Shown here: positions 1,758 to 17,799 of the stretch, piece by piece
How positions within the stretch are numbered: the stretch's first letter is position 1
Layout of the letters: every line of letters starts with the position of its first letter
DNA from: a virus
Length of the DNA stretch: 38,147 nucleotides
Strand: one strand, 5' to 3'
IMG/VR virus record: IMGVR_UViG_3300047094_000756
Span: 1 to 38,147 of that record
The notes under the pieces: generated by a model
Told to the model about the DNA's origin: nothing
Database searches by the model: none
What the model saw: only the letters and a program-made list of their open reading frames with translations
Made by a program: the position numbers and the translations under genes

Positions 1758-1782
1758 ATAAAAAAGAGGCATTTCTGCCTCT
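1757..1782 (-). terminator. Rho-independent terminator after the 228-residue gene
   Basis: On the minus strand a 7-base-pair stem (AGAGGCA/TGCCTCT) with a GAAA loop is followed by a run of six T and an AT-rich tail. The upstream arm touches the TGA stop codon of the 228-residue gene (1782-1784). It should end the uvsY-228-residue transcript. Confidence 0.85.
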
Positions 1783-2468
1783 CAGTCTGCAAGACCAATA
1801 CCACTTATTCCATATCTGTCACCTGGTTTATGTCCAACATCCATTTTAAATCCAATTCCAGGACGTCCTAAATTTGGTAATGATGAAGAACCACCTCTTG
1901 TTCCTCTGGGTTTGGGGAGTGGTTTTGGTTGTGTACTAGCAGATTTTATAACTGCAAACGGATCATCGCCAACAGAAACGCCACTTACAGATTGTCTATA
2001 AAGTTTTGGACCTTTTGGTGTTGAACCTTGACCAGATGATCCTGCTGCTGCTCTTCTTTCATCTCTAACAGAAGGAGTTAAAGGATTTTGAGTGCTTCTA
2101 ACTGGTTGATAAGTTCTTGTGAGTGAACCACTACTAGTCTTCACTGCATTTGGTGGAGTTGGTCTACTTCTAATTGGATTCTCTCTTGTTCTTTGCGAAT
2201 GTTTTGTTTCTGGATAAATTCCTTGTGCTCTTTGTTTTGCGTAATTGAATAAATTATGTAATGTATCTAAACTAGTTTGTCCAGGTTTTAAATTACCAAA
2301 ATCTCTTCGACGATCTGCAAGTTCTTGTGGACTTGGATTTGAAGAAGTATATGGTGCAGACAAACTTGTTGGAGTATTTCGAGAACGGTTAATAATTTCT
2401 TGTGTTCTTATACCCAATCTTGTAGAAGTTGCCCCCGCCTCTGATATAAACTCTCTAAAAGTTTTCAT
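1782..2468 (-). CDS. Putative packaged internal head protein with capsid-targeting-like leader
   Basis: This 228-residue protein has no enzymatic fold that I recognise. It begins MKTFREFISEA, very close to the T4 internal-protein leader (MKTYQEFIAEA as I recall it), which sends proteins into the prohead and is then removed by gp21. The I-S-E/A site at residues 8-11 fits the gp21 rule (L/I-x-E) and resembles FLSE/AP in this phage's gp23. The rest is low-complexity, rich in Ser, Pro, Thr, Arg and Gly, with almost no hydrophobic core and a net basic look, as expected of a disordered DNA-associated internal protein. It follows uvsY by 18 bases and ends in a terminator. A CTAAATA box lies 16 bases before the ATG. 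The packaged role is inferred; an unrelated disordered virion protein is the alternative. Confidence 0.6.
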   Translation of the reverse strand: MKTFREFISEAGATSTRLGIRTQEIINRSRNTPTSLSAPYTSSNPSPQELADRRRDFGNLKPGQTSLDTLHNLFNYAKQRAQGIYPETKHSQRTRENPIRSRPTPPNAVKTSSGSLTRTYQPVRSTQNPLTPSVRDERRAAAGSSGQGSTPKGPKLYRQSVSGVSVGDDPFAVIKSASTQPKPLPKPRGTRGGSSSLPNLGRPGIGFKMDVGHKPGDRYGISGIGLAD

Positions 2469-2483
2469 TTAACTTTTTATTTT

Positions 2484-2490
2484 TATTTAG
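2484..2490 (-). promoter_or_regulatory. Possible late promoter variant CTAAATA
   Basis: CTAAATA overlaps the uvsY stop codon and lies about 16 bases before the ATG at 2468. The same heptamer, often embedded in the previous stop codon, occurs at 4078, 9570 and 17821. It differs from the T4 consensus only at the second base. Confidence 0.4.
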
Positions 2491-2918: not shown

Positions 2919-3454
2919 TTAATCGAACTAGTTATAGTGTATACAGTATACTTGAAAGATGCCTGTGCTGTAAAGTACTGGATGTCAGTTGGTGTGGCAT
3001 CAAAATCAAGAGAACTTAATGATGTTGGGAATAAATCTAAAAACTTAACTTTTGCAACTTCTCTATAATTACTGTTCAGAATACGTAAAGTTCCATCACT
3101 GAATGCTTCCAACATATCTCTCTGACCAGCATCATCTGTGGTCAAATTTTTAAATTGTTGAGTTGTTTCTGGAAATCCAAGTCCAGTTAACCATTCATAC
3201 ACTGCAATATAATTTTCCATATTCTCATCAACAATAAACCTAAGAGTTAAATCTCCATAGGTTAATTTTTCACCTGGTACGTCAATATCCTTTAAGTATG
3301 AAGGTTGTATTGTAGTTGCAAGAGAAATCTCTGGTATTCTGGCACTATTGGCAAAGAAATCTACTTGGGGATATTTTGCCAAAGTAAATTTAAACCCAAC
3401 AGTTGTTAGAAAATTTCTATTTGAAATTTGTCCAGGAAAATTACAATTAGACAT
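2915..3454 (-). CDS. gp3-like tail completion / sheath stabiliser protein
   Basis: This 179-residue protein occupies the place where T4-like cyanophages usually carry gp3, between gp23 and uvsY. Its length equals that of T4 gp3 (about 176). The pattern F..TVGFKFTLAKYPQVDFF, then the conserved DLTLRFIVDENMENYIAVYEW block at about residues 68-88, is typical of the tail-tube-fold family that caps the tube end. T4 gp3 terminates the tail tube at its head-proximal end and helps anchor the sheath. The start codon overlaps the preceding stop (TAATG) and its own stop overlaps the uvsY ATG. An additional tube-like virion protein is possible, since gp3 and gp19 share a fold. Confidence 0.7.
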   Translation of the reverse strand: MSNCNFPGQISNRNFLTTVGFKFTLAKYPQVDFFANSARIPEISLATTIQPSYLKDIDVPGEKLTYGDLTLRFIVDENMENYIAVYEWLTGLGFPETTQQFKNLTTDDAGQRDMLEAFSDGTLRILNSNYREVAKVKFLDLFPTSLSSLDFDATPTDIQYFTAQASFKYTVYTITSSIK

Positions 3455-3894
3455 TATTTTTTCCAGTTAAAGATTGATTTTGGTTTTTCTGGATATTTAA
3501 AAATAGGACTTAGTTTTGGTTTTGGTAATGGTCCGACTTTAAGGGTTCTTGCACCAAATTCTTTATAATTTGGATAACCGAGTTGTTGAGTGGTTCCTGT
3601 TGTCAAATCATACTCTCTATTACCGTGATATGGACCCCTATCAATAACAGGTGCAGTCACTGATCTTCCAGTTCTCGGATCTGTAATTCTTACCTGAGTT
3701 CCAAGTGGTAAAGTTTTGTGAGCAACTCCTCTTGTTTTTGGAGTTAAAACAGTTCCATCTGCTGTCTTGTTTCCGTAAAGTCCTGGACCATAAGAACTAG
3801 TTTCAACATTTTTGTCCGTTGACTCTGGTCTTTTGGTCCACTTAAATATTGAACTTGGTTGTGCTTGTTCTTGAAACTGTTTAAAAGTTTTCAC
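3454..3894 (-). CDS. RlpA-like double-psi-beta-barrel protein with possible head-targeting leader
   Basis: This 146-residue protein starts at a GTG (3894) three bases after the previous stop; MKTFKQFQ only reads as an N-terminus from there. Residues about 34-118 form an RlpA-type double-psi beta-barrel: SSYGPGLYGNKTADGTVLTP, RGVAHKTLPLGTQVRIT, the hallmark VIDRGPYHGNREYDLT, and the LGYPNYKEFGARTLKV end. Bacterial RlpA is an outer-membrane septal lytic transglycosylase acting on peptide-free glycan; the aspartate of DRGP and the histidine of AHKTLP are conserved here. There is no signal peptide or lipobox. Instead the N-terminus resembles the T4 internal-protein leader, though without a clean I/L-x-E site. 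A short motif recurs three times: SSIFKWTKRP, SPIFKYPEKP and KSIFNWKK. Cell-wall cleavage by a virion protein is inferred. Confidence 0.75.
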   Translation of the reverse strand: MKTFKQFQEQAQPSSIFKWTKRPESTDKNVETSSYGPGLYGNKTADGTVLTPKTRGVAHKTLPLGTQVRITDPRTGRSVTAPVIDRGPYHGNREYDLTTGTTQQLGYPNYKEFGARTLKVGPLPKPKLSPIFKYPEKPKSIFNWKK

Positions 3895-4056: not shown

Positions 4057-4077
4057 TGTTACTACTAGTTTTATTTT

Positions 4078-4084
4078 TATTTAG
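4078..4084 (-). promoter_or_regulatory. Possible late promoter variant CTAAATA
   Basis: CTAAATA sits directly after the gp23 terminator T-run and 22 bases before the ATG of the 52-residue gene. A terminator followed at once by a promoter would let the downstream set be controlled apart from the very strong gp23 transcript. Confidence 0.45.
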
Positions 4085-4134: not shown

Positions 4135-5532
4135 TCACATTAAATTGGTAACCTTGACTCTTCTGTAGTAACGGTTTGCGTTACGATCAAGACCAGCACC
4201 GCTGATTGCGCTAGTACCCTGCGAGAATGGGTTAGCAACAATTCCATAACGAGTCTTGAAGCCGATCTTAGGCTGGAAGGTGTCCTGACCAACTGCACGT
4301 ACCATCTGGAGAGGTACATATGGGCAGTAGAACAGACCAGCATCATAAGGAGAAGAACCTTTATAACCAACAACGTAGTACTGGTTAGCAGATACGTTTG
4401 CAGCATAAGGATCGATATAAACACGATACTTACCTTGCAGAACACCAGCGAAGGTGTTACCAGTGTCATCAACGTTGAGGTTAGCGTTGAGTGCAGGGGT
4501 GTAATCAAGAACACCTGCCATGGTGAGTGCCGAAGCAACGTCAGCAGAGCAGAGGATCATGTTACCCTTGCCACGACGAGTTCTCTGGGCGATAGCGTTT
4601 GCGTCACGCTCGATCTGGAAGATCAGACCCTTGAACTTCTCAACTGACCAACGACCGTTGGAGTCAACGTCGAGGTCGAAAGTACCAGCGGTAGCAACGT
4701 TTGCCTGAGCACCAGACTCAGCAACGTTATAGATGGTACGGATAACTTCGCGGTTGATTTCAGCGAGGATCTCAGTGCTGAGGATGTTAGCAAGCTCAGC
4801 TTCTGCATTCAGACCGTGAATTGCCTTCAGGTCTTGTGCGAGTTCGAGCGAGTACTCAGCTTTCAGAGCACGTGACTTAGCAGTAACGGTGACTTTCTCG
4901 ATCGAGAATGCCATCTCGTTAAAGTGGTCGCCACTGGTCTGACCAAGATTCTCTGCATCATCGGTACGCATACCCTGACCTACGTTGTAGGTAGTTGCGT
5001 CACCGGTTGCAGGATAGGTAGCATCCAGAAGACCAGGATTGGTTCCACGCTGAGTGGTTGTACCCATACCAACGTTACCTGCGGTAAATCCGTTGGTGAG
5101 GTTGAATCCGCTGTCCTGTCCAGAGAATGCAGTATCTGCTTCGTTGAACAGTGCTTCGGTGCCGCTCATGTTGGTGTACTTAGAGCGCATTGCGAAGATC
5201 AGTCCAGTAGGACCGTTCATTGGTTGAACGCCAGCGAGGTCATAAGCGACCAGGTTAGGCATTGAACGTCTAATCAGGGAGATCAGAACAGGGTCGAAAC
5301 CAGCAACAGGGGCAGAAGCACCAGCAGAGAAACCTGCATTAGCGCCACTGTTGGTGTTTACGGTTGGAGCTTCGGAGAGGAATGCTCTCTCTTCACGAAG
5401 TTCTCTTTCTTGGTTTTCAAGCAGGATTGCGGTTACCGCTCTACGATGTGAATCTTTGATTGGATCAAGACCATCATAGTCGAGGATTGGTGCCCACTTC
5501 TCCTGCAGATGCTCGGCATTGAACATTTGCAT
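4135..5532 (-). CDS. 23: Major capsid protein gp23
   Basis: This 465-residue protein is the T4-like major head subunit, which forms the hexameric shell. Hallmarks are FDPVLISLIRRSMPNLVAYD at about residues 79-98, VQPMNGPTGLIFAMRSKY just after, and the C-terminal region with QMVRAVGQDTFQPKIGFKTR and YGIVANPF. T4 gp23 is 521 residues. The N-terminal propeptide is visible, and FLSE/AP (cut after Glu54) fits the gp21 protease rule. The start at 5532 is preferred over the second ATG at 5526 because GAGG lies 10 bases before it. Codon use is clearly richer in G and C than in the neighbours, as expected of the most highly made protein. No TATAAATA box lies directly before it, so transcription probably comes from the gp22 promoter or further up. 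A strong terminator follows. Confidence 0.98.
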   Translation of the reverse strand: MQMFNAEHLQEKWAPILDYDGLDPIKDSHRRAVTAILLENQERELREERAFLSEAPTVNTNSGANAGFSAGASAPVAGFDPVLISLIRRSMPNLVAYDLAGVQPMNGPTGLIFAMRSKYTNMSGTEALFNEADTAFSGQDSGFNLTNGFTAGNVGMGTTTQRGTNPGLLDATYPATGDATTYNVGQGMRTDDAENLGQTSGDHFNEMAFSIEKVTVTAKSRALKAEYSLELAQDLKAIHGLNAEAELANILSTEILAEINREVIRTIYNVAESGAQANVATAGTFDLDVDSNGRWSVEKFKGLIFQIERDANAIAQRTRRGKGNMILCSADVASALTMAGVLDYTPALNANLNVDDTGNTFAGVLQGKYRVYIDPYAANVSANQYYVVGYKGSSPYDAGLFYCPYVPLQMVRAVGQDTFQPKIGFKTRYGIVANPFSQGTSAISGAGLDRNANRYYRRVKVTNLM

Positions 5533-5584
5533 TTGATTTTTACCTCTTTTTAAAAAGTGTTGTTGTTTGAGTATAATCTAAAAA

Positions 5585-6667
5585 TCACTTTTTAGAAGCT
5601 CTTGAAAGAGTCTGTAAGTAAGCAGCCATCATTGGAGAAATGGACTCATTAAGAGCCTCTTTCTCATCTGTGGTTACTTCTTCCGAAAGATTCTCACTTG
5701 CGCTTCTTTGAGTACCAGCGTTTGATGGGAAATATGATTCCCTCAGAGTTACTAGCTTCTCACGATAGTCTGCTTCACTTTCAAACTCAACATTTTCAGC
5801 AAGAGAAGCGAGTTTGTCCTTCTGAGAAAGTGCGAGACCCTCAGCGACATCTGCAAAGATTACATCAGCAACCGACTCAGCTAATCTTCTATTCAGAGCA
5901 ACGTTTCTTTCGATTTGCTCGTTGAGTTTTTCTTCCATTTCATCAAGTTTATCTACCATGCTCTCGATTACATCATATCTATCTTCAGGGATTGTTACAT
6001 AATGATCTTCAAAAAGACTCTTCATTCCTACAAGGAATGATTCAGTCATTTCGGTCTTAAGACCGTGCTCTACTGCGAGTGCATTCTCTTGGAACCACTC
6101 ATCAGCAACATACTCAAGATAAGAATCAACTCTTTCGGTGAGTTGAGTCTTAATTGCATCAAGCTCTTCTACAAGAGCAGCAGCATACGATTCTTGAAGG
6201 GATTCTTTGATTTCAGCAACTCTTGATTTAATTGCTGCCTCAAAGATTGTACGTGCTTTCTCTTGGAATTCTTCAGAGAGTTCTTCACCCGCTAGAAGAG
6301 CATTAACATCTTCTTCGATGTTGAAATCTTCTTCTACGACTTCTTCTTCTTCCTCTTCAACTTCCTCTTCACCACCTTCTTCGCCACCTTCAAGATCCTC
6401 TTCCTCTTCAGTCTCCTCTTCGATGACTTCTTCCTCTACTTCGGTCTCTTCTGCTCTTACCGCTTTTGCGTTAACAACATCTTTGACCTGAGCAAGAGTT
6501 GCGCCAGGAGTTTTGAGTGCTGCTGAATCGTCGTCTGGACGATAATTATCAGGAGTAGGACCGCCGAGATCTTCAACTGGAATACCAGCCGAAGGCATTG
6601 GCTCAGCAGGTGCAGCCCCTTTGGTTACTACGTTTTCCATTTCTTGTAAATTGCTACCAACGGACAT
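5585..6667 (-). CDS. 22: Prohead core scaffolding protein gp22
   Basis: This 360-residue protein lies between protease gp21 and major capsid gp23, exactly as in T4. Scaffold gp22 fills the prohead core and is then degraded by gp21. The sequence fits: no cysteine, very acidic, long helical and coiled-coil stretches (for example EDRYDVIESMVDKLDEMEEK), and L-x-E sites such as ELSEEFQEK. About residues 75-120 form an almost pure Glu tract with some Val and Gly, encoded by imperfect GAA/GAG repeats. T4 gp22 is 269 residues; the N-terminal 110 residues, including the acid tract, account for most of the extra length. A TATAAATA box lies 31 bases before the ATG. Confidence 0.9.
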   Translation of the reverse strand: MSVGSNLQEMENVVTKGAAPAEPMPSAGIPVEDLGGPTPDNYRPDDDSAALKTPGATLAQVKDVVNAKAVRAEETEVEEEVIEEETEEEEDLEGGEEGGEEEVEEEEEEVVEEDFNIEEDVNALLAGEELSEEFQEKARTIFEAAIKSRVAEIKESLQESYAAALVEELDAIKTQLTERVDSYLEYVADEWFQENALAVEHGLKTEMTESFLVGMKSLFEDHYVTIPEDRYDVIESMVDKLDEMEEKLNEQIERNVALNRRLAESVADVIFADVAEGLALSQKDKLASLAENVEFESEADYREKLVTLRESYFPSNAGTQRSASENLSEEVTTDEKEALNESISPMMAAYLQTLSRASKK

Positions 6668-6697
6668 TTTTGTTTAGATTCTGTGATAATCTATATT

Positions 6698-6705
6698 TAT
6701 TTATA
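6698..6705 (-). promoter_or_regulatory. T4-type late promoter TATAAATA for gp22
   Basis: An exact TATAAATA on the minus strand directly follows the gp21 stop codon (6708-6710) and lies 31 bases before the gp22 ATG. It probably drives gp22 and gp23. Confidence 0.75.
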
Positions 6706-6707
6706 AA

Positions 6708-7358
6708 TTAAAGATTTGAGAGGAAATCGTTGAATAAATTCAACTTATGCTCTTCAAGTCTTTTTTGATCTACGAGAGTATTAATTCTCTTTTGAGTTTG
6801 CTCGGCAAGTCTTTCACGAAGAATTCCACCTTCCCAAACCCACTCTTTACCTTCCATAATTCCCTGAACAAAAGCGTCAGGAGCAGAAGGGTCGGCAACG
6901 ATATCAGCAGCAGTTGCTAACATAAAATCTTCACCAACAACTTTATGACCCTCATTGGTCATCTTTAATGAACCAACACCACGAGAAGAAACGCCAAGGC
7001 AAACTCCCTCACTAATGAGAGATTTTGCAATCTTACCCATTGGAGTTTCTAAAAGTTGTGCCTTACCAATAAAATTATTACCATCTTTATAAAGTTCACA
7101 AATTTTATGTGAAACTCTATCAAGATTTACGGTAGGTCCATCAGGGTGACCGAGTTCTCCAAGAGCACGACCTTTTTGAACAAATGCTTCATTATAGCGA
7201 TTTACCTCTCTTTCCATAATAGAAAGAGGATACATTCTGCCATTTCTGTTGACTTGTTCTGCCTGCAAGAAAATACCTTTGATATAGGATTTTTTTGCAG
7301 ATCCTTTACCTTCGGTAATAAATTCTACTTTTGAAATTTCTTCTGTGATGAGTTTCAT
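6708..7358 (-). CDS. 21: Prohead core protease gp21
   Basis: This 216-residue protein is the maturation protease that cuts scaffold, capsid and internal proteins after L/I-x-E. It matches T4 gp21 (212 residues) in length, position and sequence: NRNGRMYPLSIMEREVNRYN near residues 38-57, the GELGHPDGP block with a probable catalytic His71, and LGVSSRGVGSLK with the probable nucleophile at Ser124 or Ser125. The family belongs to the herpesvirus-protease-like (U9/S80) group. An FITE/GKG site at residues 14-19 would suit self-processing. The substrate rule of this enzyme is the basis for reading the leader-like N-termini elsewhere in the window. It lies four bases after the 88-residue gene and just before the gp22 promoter. 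Confidence 0.96.
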   Translation of the reverse strand: MKLITEEISKVEFITEGKGSAKKSYIKGIFLQAEQVNRNGRMYPLSIMEREVNRYNEAFVQKGRALGELGHPDGPTVNLDRVSHKICELYKDGNNFIGKAQLLETPMGKIAKSLISEGVCLGVSSRGVGSLKMTNEGHKVVGEDFMLATAADIVADPSAPDAFVQGIMEGKEWVWEGGILRERLAEQTQKRINTLVDQKRLEEHKLNLFNDFLSNL

Positions 7359-15733: not shown

Positions 15734-16042
15734 TCACTCACTCCAAGACAATCTTTCTGGTTGATACCTTTGTGCGTTTTTAATTCTTGAAGTATTTACC
15801 TGACTTGGATAAACGTTATGAACAATTGCACCAGGATATTCTCCTTGAATTTGCTCTGCTAGTTCATTCTTAGAAAGAATTTTGCCTTCTACTTCTAAAC
15901 GATACATCTTTCCTTCCCAAACTACATCAGCAAAGAAAGACTCGCTTGCTTGTTCGGGTTGAGGGGAACCTACATTGAGAGTTCCATTAAAATCACCATT
16001 GATGGTGATACTTTCTGAAATAAACTGCTGAAAACTTTTCAT
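15734..16042 (-). CDS. 102-residue protein with T4-type capsid-targeting-like leader
   Basis: The frame is open from 16057, but the start is taken at ATG 16042. That ATG overlaps the stop of the 585-residue gene (TAATG) and has GGAGG 8 bases before it, while the earlier ATG has nothing similar. The protein then begins MKSFQQFISESI, close to the T4 internal-protein leader, with an I-S-E/S site as expected for gp21. The remaining 92 residues hold a small mixed fold (SFFADVVWEGKMYRLEVEGK, then NELAEQIQGEYPGAIVHNVY) that I recognise as a recurring cyanophage domain without known function. It is translationally coupled to the modular basic protein. Removal of the leader and packaging in the head are inferred. 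Confidence 0.75.
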   Translation of the reverse strand: MKSFQQFISESITINGDFNGTLNVGSPQPEQASESFFADVVWEGKMYRLEVEGKILSKNELAEQIQGEYPGAIVHNVYPSQVNTSRIKNAQRYQPERLSWSE

Positions 16043-17799
16043 TATCTGCACCTCCAACGGCGTAATGCTTTGTTAATTCTTGAATCTGGATCTCTTGCTG
16101 TTTTTGATGATGTGAGTTTTGATTTCATCCCTTTCATACGTCGGCAGAAATTAGCACGACGCTTTGCTCTCTTTCCTTTTGGTTTCTTTTCAGTTACCGC
16201 AGTTTGAAGTTTTGAACCTGGATTCTCACGACGATAAGCATCAACTGCTGCTTGACTTAGACCATCAGTTTTATCTTTACGATTTACTGATTGCCAATCT
16301 TCGGAAATCTCTGTTCTCCAATCAGAATATCCTTCCTTTACACAACGGTTGTAAGTTTTACCAAACAGTTCTTGTGTTCCTGATTTTTTGTAACCTTTCC
16401 AGCACTTTTTACCTGCCTCATCTAAAATTTCACTTCCAATACCCTTTGATGGTTGTAATGGTTGTGGTTCAATAATATTTACAGATTCAACTTCTGTTGG
16501 GAAGAATTCATCTCTCCAATTAGAAAATTCATATCCTTCTTTTTTAGTTTTATTTCCCCAATTTTTTGCACCAACTTTGCGGCACTTGACTAGTGCGCCA
16601 GAAGCATATGCACTTGGCCAAACATCATACCTTGCCTTTACCTTCTTATAACAAGCGTCTTTTTCTTCTACCATATCACCTTCTGGTTCATAAGAATTTT
16701 TTTGAGTTGCTTTATTAATAGCATCTCTTTTTTGCTTCATTTTATCAATCAAATCATCAGAACCAGTTGCAGGAGAATCAATTGCTTTATCAACTGCTGG
16801 TTTTGCGAACTTTTTTAAAAGATATGGAATAAAGGCAGCACCTGCACCGATAGCAACTTTACCCCACAGTTCATCTAGTTGTTCACCTTCTGGTTCAAAA
16901 TGTGCTTTTTGTAAACCAGTTTTAATTACTTGTCCACCACCGTATTTGTTTGGTCCTTTTTTATCTTTATCTATAATATCCTGTAAGATCTGATCTGGGG
17001 TTTTTCCATACTTACTGGCATCAACTTGTTCAACAGTTACAAACTTTGCCTTTCCTTTTCTATTTGGATTTGGGTCTTCTTTACGTTTTTTTGCTGCTCT
17101 TTTATTTCTTTCTTCCTTACTCATTGATGCTCTATCGTCAGCATCGCGGCAGAATGGTTTTGTTTTTTGTCCAGGTTGTTTAGCACAAGGTTTTCCATCA
17201 TACTTACCACCTGCTTGAACCCATCCACCACCTTTAAACCAATCACGAAGAGAATAATCTTTATCTTTTGCTGATTTCCCGTCTCTCTTACCTTCTAATA
17301 TTTCAACTTCTTCTTTATTCATTTCACCACTATCTACATAATCTGCTGCCGTATCAATATAGTCTGCTGCTTTTGTAATCTTTGATTGAACCCATGCTTC
17401 AATCTCACCCTCACCTTTCTTCATTTTTTTCTGAAGTTTTTTAGTCGCCTTCGCAATGGTTGATAACTCTGAGCGAGCCATTGAATATTCATGATCTTTT
17501 GACTCATTGGCAGGATGAGGTCGGTTTCGATCATATTTAATCTGATTCATGGTAAGAATCGGCGTAGAATATCTATCCCACATTAAAGGTCCATAGGAGC
17601 ATCCATCCCTTTGCTCTATTTTCCTACACAACTTACAGTAACGGGTTTCGCTCATTTCTTTTTGTTCGCTAAATGGTGATTTAGACTTGGTTTCTTCACC
17701 TCTTTTTCTTTTCCTACGAGCAGCACAATGTGCCTTTTGCGAAAATCCTTTTGGATTTCCACAGTCTATTGATTTTTTATAATCGTTAGACCAACTCAT
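16042..17799 (-). CDS. Modular cysteine-pair basic protein, possible processed head polyprotein
   Basis: This 585-residue Lys/Arg-rich protein looks like a string of small modules. They are SIDCGNPKGFSQKAHCAARR (10-29), CKLC with a third Cys (55-67), a helical GEGEIEAWVQSKITKAADYI (129-148), GKYDGKPC to FCRDADDRASMSKEE (198-230), an amphipathic VAIGAGAAFIPYLLKKF (315-331), ACYKKVKARYDVWPSAYASG (382-401) closing at Cys406, KKCWKGYKKSGTQELFGK (464-481) closing at Cys486, and a C-terminal NFCRRMKGMKSKLTSSKTAR block ending RRWRCR. Several such modules are familiar from marine phages and large viruses as domains of unknown function. Between them lie L/I-x-E sites at EILE (167-170), QLDE (307-310), EILDE (457-461) and EISE (497-500). 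Processing by gp21 and DNA binding are inferred. A CTAAATA box lies 22 bases upstream. Confidence 0.7.
   Translation of the reverse strand: MSWSNDYKKSIDCGNPKGFSQKAHCAARRKRKRGEETKSKSPFSEQKEMSETRYCKLCRKIEQRDGCSYGPLMWDRYSTPILTMNQIKYDRNRPHPANESKDHEYSMARSELSTIAKATKKLQKKMKKGEGEIEAWVQSKITKAADYIDTAADYVDSGEMNKEEVEILEGKRDGKSAKDKDYSLRDWFKGGGWVQAGGKYDGKPCAKQPGQKTKPFCRDADDRASMSKEERNKRAAKKRKEDPNPNRKGKAKFVTVEQVDASKYGKTPDQILQDIIDKDKKGPNKYGGGQVIKTGLQKAHFEPEGEQLDELWGKVAIGAGAAFIPYLLKKFAKPAVDKAIDSPATGSDDLIDKMKQKRDAINKATQKNSYEPEGDMVEEKDACYKKVKARYDVWPSAYASGALVKCRKVGAKNWGNKTKKEGYEFSNWRDEFFPTEVESVNIIEPQPLQPSKGIGSEILDEAGKKCWKGYKKSGTQELFGKTYNRCVKEGYSDWRTEISEDWQSVNRKDKTDGLSQAAVDAYRRENPGSKLQTAVTEKKPKGKRAKRRANFCRRMKGMKSKLTSSKTARDPDSRINKALRRWRCR

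Follow-up and report, generated by a model that had tools for sequence, protein, structure and literature searches.

T4 internal-protein-like leaders on unrelated proteins of a T4-like cyanomyovirus and its relatives

The capsid-targeting sequence (CTS) of bacteriophage T4 is reported to package foreign proteins as well; in the T4 internal protein IPIII residues 4 and 7 steer targeting and residues 8 and 10 processing, Asp at residue 10 blocks cutting while targeting is kept, and the protease gp21 cleaves after L/I-x-E (PMC9026906). The T4 internal proteins Ip1–3 are described as each blocking a different GmrSD restriction enzyme (PMC12373910). That T-even phages have a CTS, and that internal proteins can be recognized by it, is already known. 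Here we describe leaders of this kind in a stretch of viral DNA of 38,147 nucleotides (IMG/VR record IMGVR_UViG_3300047094_000756, positions 1 to 38,147; called the window below), which is a fragment of a T4-like cyanomyovirus with Synechococcus phage S-SRM01 as the closest phage record in our search. We consider it very likely that the leader is a CTS of the T4 type, by which proteins would dock on a gp22-type core, be cut by gp21 and be delivered with the DNA.

Three window proteins of 228, 146 and 102 residues, whose bodies are mutually unrelated in Pfam and PHROG scans, begin with a leader similar to that of the T4 internal proteins. All three genes lie on the minus strand. The 228-residue protein (1782..2468, ATG start) begins MKTFREFISE/A, the slash marking the predicted gp21 cut, and its codons 1–10 (2439..2468) form a predicted CTS with the cut after E10, as judged from the sequence and the residue rules for T4 IPIII (PMC9026906). 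The 102-residue protein (15734..16042, ATG start) begins MKSFQQFISE/S, and its codons 1–10 (16013..16042) are likewise a predicted CTS with a cut site. The 146-residue protein (3454..3894, GTG start) begins MKTFKQFQEQA (codons 1–10 at 3865..3894). An aromatic residue 4 and F7 are found in all three. In the 228- and the 102-residue protein both the targeting residues (4 and 7) and the processing residues (8 and 10) of T4 are present and the L/I-x-E motif ends the leader (ISE/A and ISE/S). The first-pass annotation of this DNA had placed these leaders correctly in position and residues, and had called the one at 3894 weaker; it does keep F4 and F7, and with Q8 and Q10 it lacks the canonical cut site, FQE at residues 7–9 being the only near form. 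Two of the 79 open reading frames (ORFs) of at least 40 residues, counted from the first ATG, match MK[ST][FY]xxF[ILMVF]xE, and none does so in 500 column-shuffled sets of N-termini; the 146-residue gene stands outside this count, which covers ATG starts.

In the T4 record ipII and ipIII begin with MKTYQEFIAEA, exactly as the first-pass annotation had given it, and ipI begins with MKTFKEFTSTT, which is a precedent for a leader that has F4 and F7 and no E10. As a positive control the pattern MK[ST][FY]xxF recovers ipI, ipII and ipIII; the two further T4 matches are gp61.1 and a 42-residue ORF. The hypothetical protein gp61.1 (54 residues, NC_000866 18966–19130) begins MKTFKEFIKE/D, a full leader with cut site, and by its N-terminus it is a candidate for a further T4 internal protein.

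The leader pattern at gene starts is overwhelmingly viral and not due to chance. The exact pattern (15 fixed bases) occurs in at least 120 stretches of viral contigs, compared to none for one codon-scrambled order of the same composition. Among the viral matches listed, all 84 (80 loci) open an ORF of at least 50 residues or run off the contig, and 80 of the 84 are preceded by a stop codon at a distance of less than 25 codons. In bacterial and archaeal genomes (257 Gb) the pattern matched 33 times; 8 of these matches open an ORF of at least 50 residues and have a stop codon within the same distance, and some of the 8 may belong to phage contigs included in metagenome bins. Column-shuffled N-termini from 13 phage genomes and the window yield on average 0–0.12 leaders per genome versus, for example, 8 in S-SRM01, 4 in T4 and 2 in the window, and 5 of the 13 other phage genomes have no leader ORF when ATG starts are counted. 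Twelve T4-like genomes (∼2.4 Mb) contain 26 ORFs with the full pattern versus one in their reversed sequences.

The 82 leader bodies that could be clustered (two of the 84 are too short because of contig ends) fall into 45 single-linkage clusters, and this number is an undercount at the largest cluster (25 members), in which phrog_1742 proteins are chained with, for example, two S-adenosylmethionine (SAM) lyases. Of the 45 cluster representatives, 36 have a positive net charge, which reaches at least +10 in 17. At residue 11, which the pattern leaves free, 22 of the 45 have A or S (14.6% background in the bodies, p = 5e-8), while positions 12–15 are not enriched (6 to 8 of 45). This enrichment is what a gp21 cut after E10 predicts, and it resembles the SE/AP site of gp23 in the window. 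One could argue that the leader is a shared N-terminal helix of other use, for example in regulated degradation, binding of a late-gene factor or translation control, and that the likeness to T4 is convergent. The motif is short, a low-confidence helix appears in both structure models (residues 4–8 or 4–10), and a few leaders have no cut site. We nevertheless regard this explanation as very improbable, as A or S is enriched exactly at position 11, the leaders agree with the mapped targeting and processing residues of T4, leader ORFs overlap with the mass-spectrometric detection of virion proteins, and the leader interchanges with other modules ending in E before the domain DUF6321 (see below for the latter two).

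Pfam and PHROG scans covered 42 of the 45 cluster representatives (the partial L265, L313 and L314 were omitted) and three further members. Above the Pfam cut-offs are SAM lyase (L282 and L317, both with full leaders), GNAT, HNH, DUF6267 and DUF5661. In addition, three cytidylyltransferase-like matches constitute one cluster (best E 5e-10), DUF6321 bodies reach E 1.9e-19, and a methyltransferase match is just under its cut-off. Bodies similar to ADP-ribosyltransferases (L266, L270, L324), zincins (L324) and ParB (L289) were recognized by eye or below threshold only. At L324 (6505–9422) four consecutive genes each begin MKTFKQFI and continue with unrelated bodies, one of which has a HELTH zincin-like motif that is sub-threshold in Pfam.

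Virion proteomes of cyanomyoviruses are reported to include enzymes (PMC10665884, PMC9602691, PMC3037559, PMC9146016), and the authors of the S-CREM2 and S-SCSM1 studies state that these could be either part of the particle's load or contaminants. The full-pattern leader ORFs of S-CREM2 are the SAM lyase gp6 (MKDFDSFLEE), the kinase-like gp14 (VKRFDAFLTE), gp136 (MQTFSMFFSE) and the cytidylyltransferase gp154 (MKNFSSFLTE), and all four are in the published virion list, which gives 19, 21, 8 and 3 unique peptides, respectively. The leader variant MKDLHSFLTE starts gp13, which is represented in this list by one peptide. The nicotinamide mononucleotide adenylyltransferase (NMNAT) of S-SCSM1 begins MKSFLQFLKE/A and is in the published virion list, and the cytidylyltransferase of S-SZBM1 has the variant MRFRQFIIE/A at its N-terminus. 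The virion of S-CRM01 is reported to hold a kinase (PMC10665884); this phage has a leader ORF beginning MISFDQFLSE with a sub-threshold kinase match, and the kinase match of S-CREM2 is sub-threshold too. Nine genomes of T4-like cyanophages have a nucleotidyltransferase ORF with the motif GR[FYH]NP..GH, and in eight of them a leader-like motif is found upstream of it; the ninth is S-SKS1, in which a leader ORF and this ORF overlap in different frames. The other virion proteins of S-CREM2, whether structural, lytic or of no known function, are mostly without leader, which is expected if the leader marks one route only.

Counting ORFs with an aromatic residue 4, F7, a hydrophobic residue 8 and E10 (^xxx[FY]xxF[ILMVF]xE, the match starting in the first quarter of the open frame), 4/4 were detected in virions of S-CREM2, 0/1 in S-SZBM1 and 1/2 in S-SCSM1, in total 5/7 (P = 0.004), with a pattern that derives from the T4 residue data and yet was fixed after some S-CREM2 N-termini had been viewed. 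The fractions of virion proteins used were 52/219 (219 from the ORF numbering of the paper), 30/218 (as in the paper) and 45/290 (290 assumed from 293 record features). Both undetected ORFs are members of phrog_1742. The proposal of the first-pass annotation that a capsid-targeting leader marks a set of unrelated proteins is supported and reaches well beyond the window, with an overwhelmingly viral occurrence, 45 body clusters among the viral contigs listed, a cut-site signature and virion detection in S-CREM2 and S-SCSM1.

Several points weigh against the capsid-targeting reading. The order in which the proteome pattern was fixed is one of them; a wider pattern that gives 5/5, 1/2 and 1/2, together 7/9 (P = 2.5e-4; S-CREM2 ORF122, with one match from an internal start, omitted), is wholly after the fact, and the link to the proteomes rests on few proteins. 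The virion support comes from the published lists of related phages and not from the phage of the window, and we found no report in the literature of a neo-N-terminus for any of these proteins. For S-CBWM1, a cyanomyovirus not of the T4 type, NMNAT-like and kinase proteins are reported from the virion (PMC10665884), and its genome has no leader ORF by the patterns used; its NMNAT was not found by the GR[FYH]NP..GH motif search. Enzymes can therefore occur in a cyanophage virion preparation without the leader. The leader of the 146-residue window protein ends in FQEQ/A and not in L/I-x-E, and the phrog_1742 proteins of S-SCSM1 (SSCSM1_30) and S-SZBM1 are not in the published virion lists though the products of neighbouring genes are. 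The full pattern is absent from HTVC008M, S-RSM4 and the non-T4 controls, the latter being a weak control, as four non-T4 cyanophages with 0 ORFs in ∼0.3 Mb compare to ∼3 expected. Finally, only 9 of the 22 leader contigs of at least 30 kb, which are fragments, have a detectable S77 protease, and the 132-kb contig L309 has neither S77 nor gp23. The other 13 of these contigs gave no match to phrog_207, but the same search gave no match in any control; gp23 was found in 8 of the 22.

The 102-residue protein is a member of phrog_1742 (E 4.1e-41), which the first-pass annotation had not mentioned, and after its leader a small β-β-α-β domain is modelled (mean predicted local distance difference test score, pLDDT, 69). 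The leader is kept in this family: among the best 80 relatives from viral contigs F4, F7 and E10 are conserved in 79 of the 79 with intact start (L222, the remaining one, is truncated at the end of its contig), and six phages with proteins of 38–81% identity have F/Y4, F7 and E10 in all six cases. Foldseek ranks chains of T7 Gp2 first for this model of pLDDT 69 (E 0.11, probability 0.99; no match at E 0.001), and the comparison with Gp2 (VIA) gave Z 4.5 over 49 residues at 2.5 Å, tied with unrelated chains. Gp2 of T7 is an inhibitor of RNA polymerase. A profile comparison with Gp2 gave no support, and sequence searches in PDB and Pfam with the 102-residue protein gave nothing convincing; a Gp2-like function suggested by the model is kept as an idea only.

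Directly upstream on the same strand, a gene for a 585-residue protein (16042..17799) matches phrog_727 (E 8.2e-92) and DUF6321 (E 7.7e-13) and has an internal EISE/DW junction at residues 497–502 before the DUF6321 domain. DUF6321 is preceded by exchangeable modules: 107 ORFs with this domain were found, many of them close relatives, and of the 81 that have a DWQ motif (26 are without) 15 carry a leader form such as KTFQQFME, 45 an NWRxEL-type module and 21 another one. Whichever module precedes, all 81 ORFs, with 50 distinct modules between them, have E directly in front of DWQ, and two positions ahead of this E 45 of the 50 modules have L, F, V, M or I. Small leader-headed proteins on three contigs (L283, L285 and L311) belong to one cluster, with DUF6321 matched in the representative L285. 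Because of the invariant E at the DUF6321 junction, the presence of the DUF6321 protein ORF137 in the S-CREM2 virion list and the marking of the gene in the corresponding place of S-SCSM1 as a virion protein, the 585-residue protein is probably a multi-part head protein that is cut at such junctions.

These two proteins speak for another view, in which the leader docks not delivered cargo but parts of the core or scaffold that, as with T4 gp67 and gp68, are degraded by gp21 and removed. The phrog_1742 protein is acidic (net charge −4), its gene stands between structural genes in the phages looked at and it was undetected in two virion proteomes, and the 585-residue protein has the internal cut-like junction. 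On the other hand, leader-bearing SAM lyase, kinase-like protein, cytidylyltransferase/NMNAT and gp136 are present in the published virion lists, and GNAT, HNH, SAM lyase and DPBB domains would be odd scaffold parts. We consider this view unlikely, though not negligible, and prefer that the leader targets cargo to the head.

The 146-residue protein has an RlpA-type double-psi beta-barrel domain (DPBB_1, PF03330, E 6.8e-10; 39.5 bits versus a curated cut-off of 28.8), and its structure model matches 4avr (Foldseek E 4.4e-9). This domain identity is absent from the first-pass annotation. Of 29 RlpA relatives on viral contigs, 21 have the MKTF leader, 13 of them in the canonical form with I8-x-E10 and 8 with FQE at residues 7–9 as in the window (three of the latter near-identical to the window protein). 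The 8 relatives without leader have other N-termini, and in 6 of the 8 the domain lies within proteins of several hundred residues; these proteins (L043, L045–L049) have the DPBB at their N-terminus (MADV[KR]PRG[VI]ASWYGPG...) and are possibly tail or baseplate proteins. In an alignment of the window protein with 13 relatives (8 leader-bearing relatives, near-copies or truncated, were omitted) all 14 members share M1, K2, T3, F4 and F7 even as the length of the linker varies. D85 is present in 14 of 14 and H59 in 11 of 14 including the window protein, the other three having N; we take D85 and H59 to be the conserved active-site Asp and His of the RlpA/DPBB lytic transglycosylases. S-SRM01 has FQE leaders on four other bodies, two of which are paralogues, and P-SSM2 has one such leader; from their sequences the FQE leaders look like a second leader class. 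For the RlpA-type protein we predict either targeting without cut or a cut at FQE/Q.

A protein of this kind could also be a lysis or cell-wall enzyme that acts from outside the head and resembles the leader by accident. The RlpA/DPBB proteins of S-PM2, B23, S-CRM01 and phiM12 have N-termini that look by eye like signal peptides, and the baseplate protein 8kea of cyanophage A-1(L) contains a DPBB domain. The N in place of H59 makes lytic activity doubtful in three of the 14 aligned relatives. However, 21 of the 29 relatives have the MKTF leader, with I8 and E10 in 13, the five invariant residues stay unchanged next to a variable linker, and no signal peptide is seen by eye in leader-bearing relatives. 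We judge the accidental resemblance quite unlikely, and a signal-peptide/lysis reading of the window gene was rejected, since signal-peptide-like N-termini occur in the RlpA proteins of other phages and not in this clade. The protein shares with the RlpA/DPBB lytic transglycosylases the DPBB domain with the conserved Asp; it differs in that a capsid-targeting leader replaces the signal peptide or tail fusion and in that the conserved His is replaced in part of its relatives.

The 228-residue protein begins MKTFREFISEAG, is strongly basic (net charge +19) and its body is probably disordered, as judged by eye, in line with what had been noted from the sequence before. It has no Pfam or PHROG match at E 0.001 and no relative in the phage collection, and its assignment to a known family was rejected on these grounds. 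Identical copies are present in L019–L021 (L021 partial), and L022 has a relative with 41% identity that has kept the leader as MKTFREFILEA; one further locus resembles the protein in the C-terminal 18 residues only. A late-promoter-like box CTAAATAA lies just upstream of the gene (2483..2490, minus strand), and the same box is found ∼180 bp upstream of the RlpA gene (4077..4084, minus strand); both are motif matches to what we take to be the late-promoter consensus. Directly downstream of the 228-residue gene, at 1074–1727, is a GIY-YIG homing-endonuclease-like gene.

The window encodes the partners that a CTS would need. All named window genes are on the minus strand, namely uvsY and genes for tail tube/completion, gp23, gp22, gp21, portal, sheath, terminase and baseplate. 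The genes of gp23, gp22 and gp21 type together span 4135–7358. The gp21-type prohead protease (Peptidase_S77; 6708..7358; PF03420 E 1.2e-39, phrog_207 E 1.5e-81) is the predicted cutter of the leaders, and the gp22-type prohead core or scaffold protein (5585..6667; PF25623 E 2.3e-81) their predicted docking partner; both Pfam matches are above their cut-offs. The major capsid protein gp23 (4135..5532; PF07068 E 9e-153) has the cut site FLSE/AP at residues 51–56, and this site and the gp21 gene had both been recognized rightly in the first-pass annotation. We suggest that late in infection the 228-residue, RlpA-type and 102-residue proteins would be made alongside the head proteins and that the leader, by its aromatic residue 4 and F7, would dock each of them on the gp22-type prohead core. 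The gp23 shell would close around them, the gp21-type protease would cut after E10 (I/L-x-E/A or S) and free the mature proteins among the DNA, and these would exit with the DNA into the next host. As a guess, the 228-residue protein might be a basic DNA-associated filler or an anti-defence protein, the RlpA domain might trim peptidoglycan at entry (with the loss of the conserved His in three relatives in mind) and the 102-residue protein might work in the cytoplasm, with RNA polymerase as a possible target. Related phages would use this leader to load cytidylyltransferase/NMNAT, SAM lyase and a kinase-like protein.

With some reserve we lean to a wider reading: T4-like phages that infect aquatic bacteria would use the 10-residue leader as a general code for loading their heads with dozens of unrelated proteins, this cargo would be delivered before any phage gene expression, and the enzymes in the virions of T4-like cyanophages would be part of it and not contaminants. 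The set would comprise nicotinamide adenine dinucleotide (NAD)-type nucleotidyltransferases, SAM lyases, kinase-like, GNAT, HNH, methyltransferase-like and zincin-like proteins and a rerouted RlpA domain, and the leader would be a module that can be placed at the N-terminus, internally before a domain or repeatedly in one protein. Among the genomes and loci searched, 13 ORFs contain a short DGHG-type domain, and all 13 have a leader-like motif before it; as the six seeds of this search were taken from leader proteins, the 13 are not an independent sample. The kinase-like protein of S-CREM2 has the combination of leader-like motif and DGHG-type domain twice. The S-CREM2 virion protein gp12 (L368 4705–7314), annotated as Cas9, has LRFASFMAE/AA ∼17 residues in, followed by a DGHG-type domain, and no Pfam match; the Cas9 label looks doubtful. 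In S-SKS1 (L156, 72006–73249) a leader ORF with a DGHG-type domain overlaps a nucleotidyltransferase ORF in a different frame; either the gene is split or the record contains a frame error. A basic leader protein of 296 residues (L256 2677–3564) also ends in a leader-like motif, KNFAQFMLE/GGG, which by analogy to T4 Alt may be a C-terminal propeptide.

Metabolic and regulatory enzymes have been found repeatedly in cyanophage virions and could not be told from contamination; the leader together with its predicted cut site makes this question directly testable. By means of the leader, the candidate injected proteins of a T4-like phage can be listed from its genome. The leader also suggests that a common group of marine viruses carries a range of effectors for the entry stage, among them anti-restriction SAM lyase, kinase-like proteins and NAD-type enzymes, and it may serve as a natural packaging tag in cyanophages, much like the CTS in T4.

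In the open-licence literature without preprints we found no description of a CTS leader in cyanophages or of its link to their virion enzymes, and a T4-type capsid-targeting system that carries enzymes is apparently undescribed in these phages. The closest reports concern the virion NMNAT/cytidylyltransferase, kinase and SAM hydrolase of the cyanomyoviruses S-CREM2, S-SCSM1, S-SZBM1 and S-SM1. In the first three phages these proteins bear the leader or a variant of it; the papers describe detection, contamination being admitted as a possibility in two, and their passages on the virion enzymes mention no leader. The head-packaged ADP-ribosyltransferase Alt of T4 is likewise an enzyme that travels inside the head and is processed by gp21 (PMC9026906, PMC9503650). 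It differs in that the supported enzymes here are of other classes; no ADP-ribosyltransferase match was obtained among the window proteins scanned, and the similar leader proteins L266 and L270 are sub-threshold or recognized by eye only. In comparison to IPI–III of T4, the host lineage is another one, no similarity of the bodies to IPI–III was found with Pfam, PHROG and the phage collection, and the bodies that follow the leaders here include enzymes and an RlpA domain. Residues 4 and 6 are more often F and Q here, and some leaders have FQE instead of I-x-E. What both have in common is a leader with an aromatic residue 4 and F7, extended by I8-x-E10 in ipII and ipIII, on bodies that are unrelated to each other, in phages that also encode gp21, gp22 and gp23.

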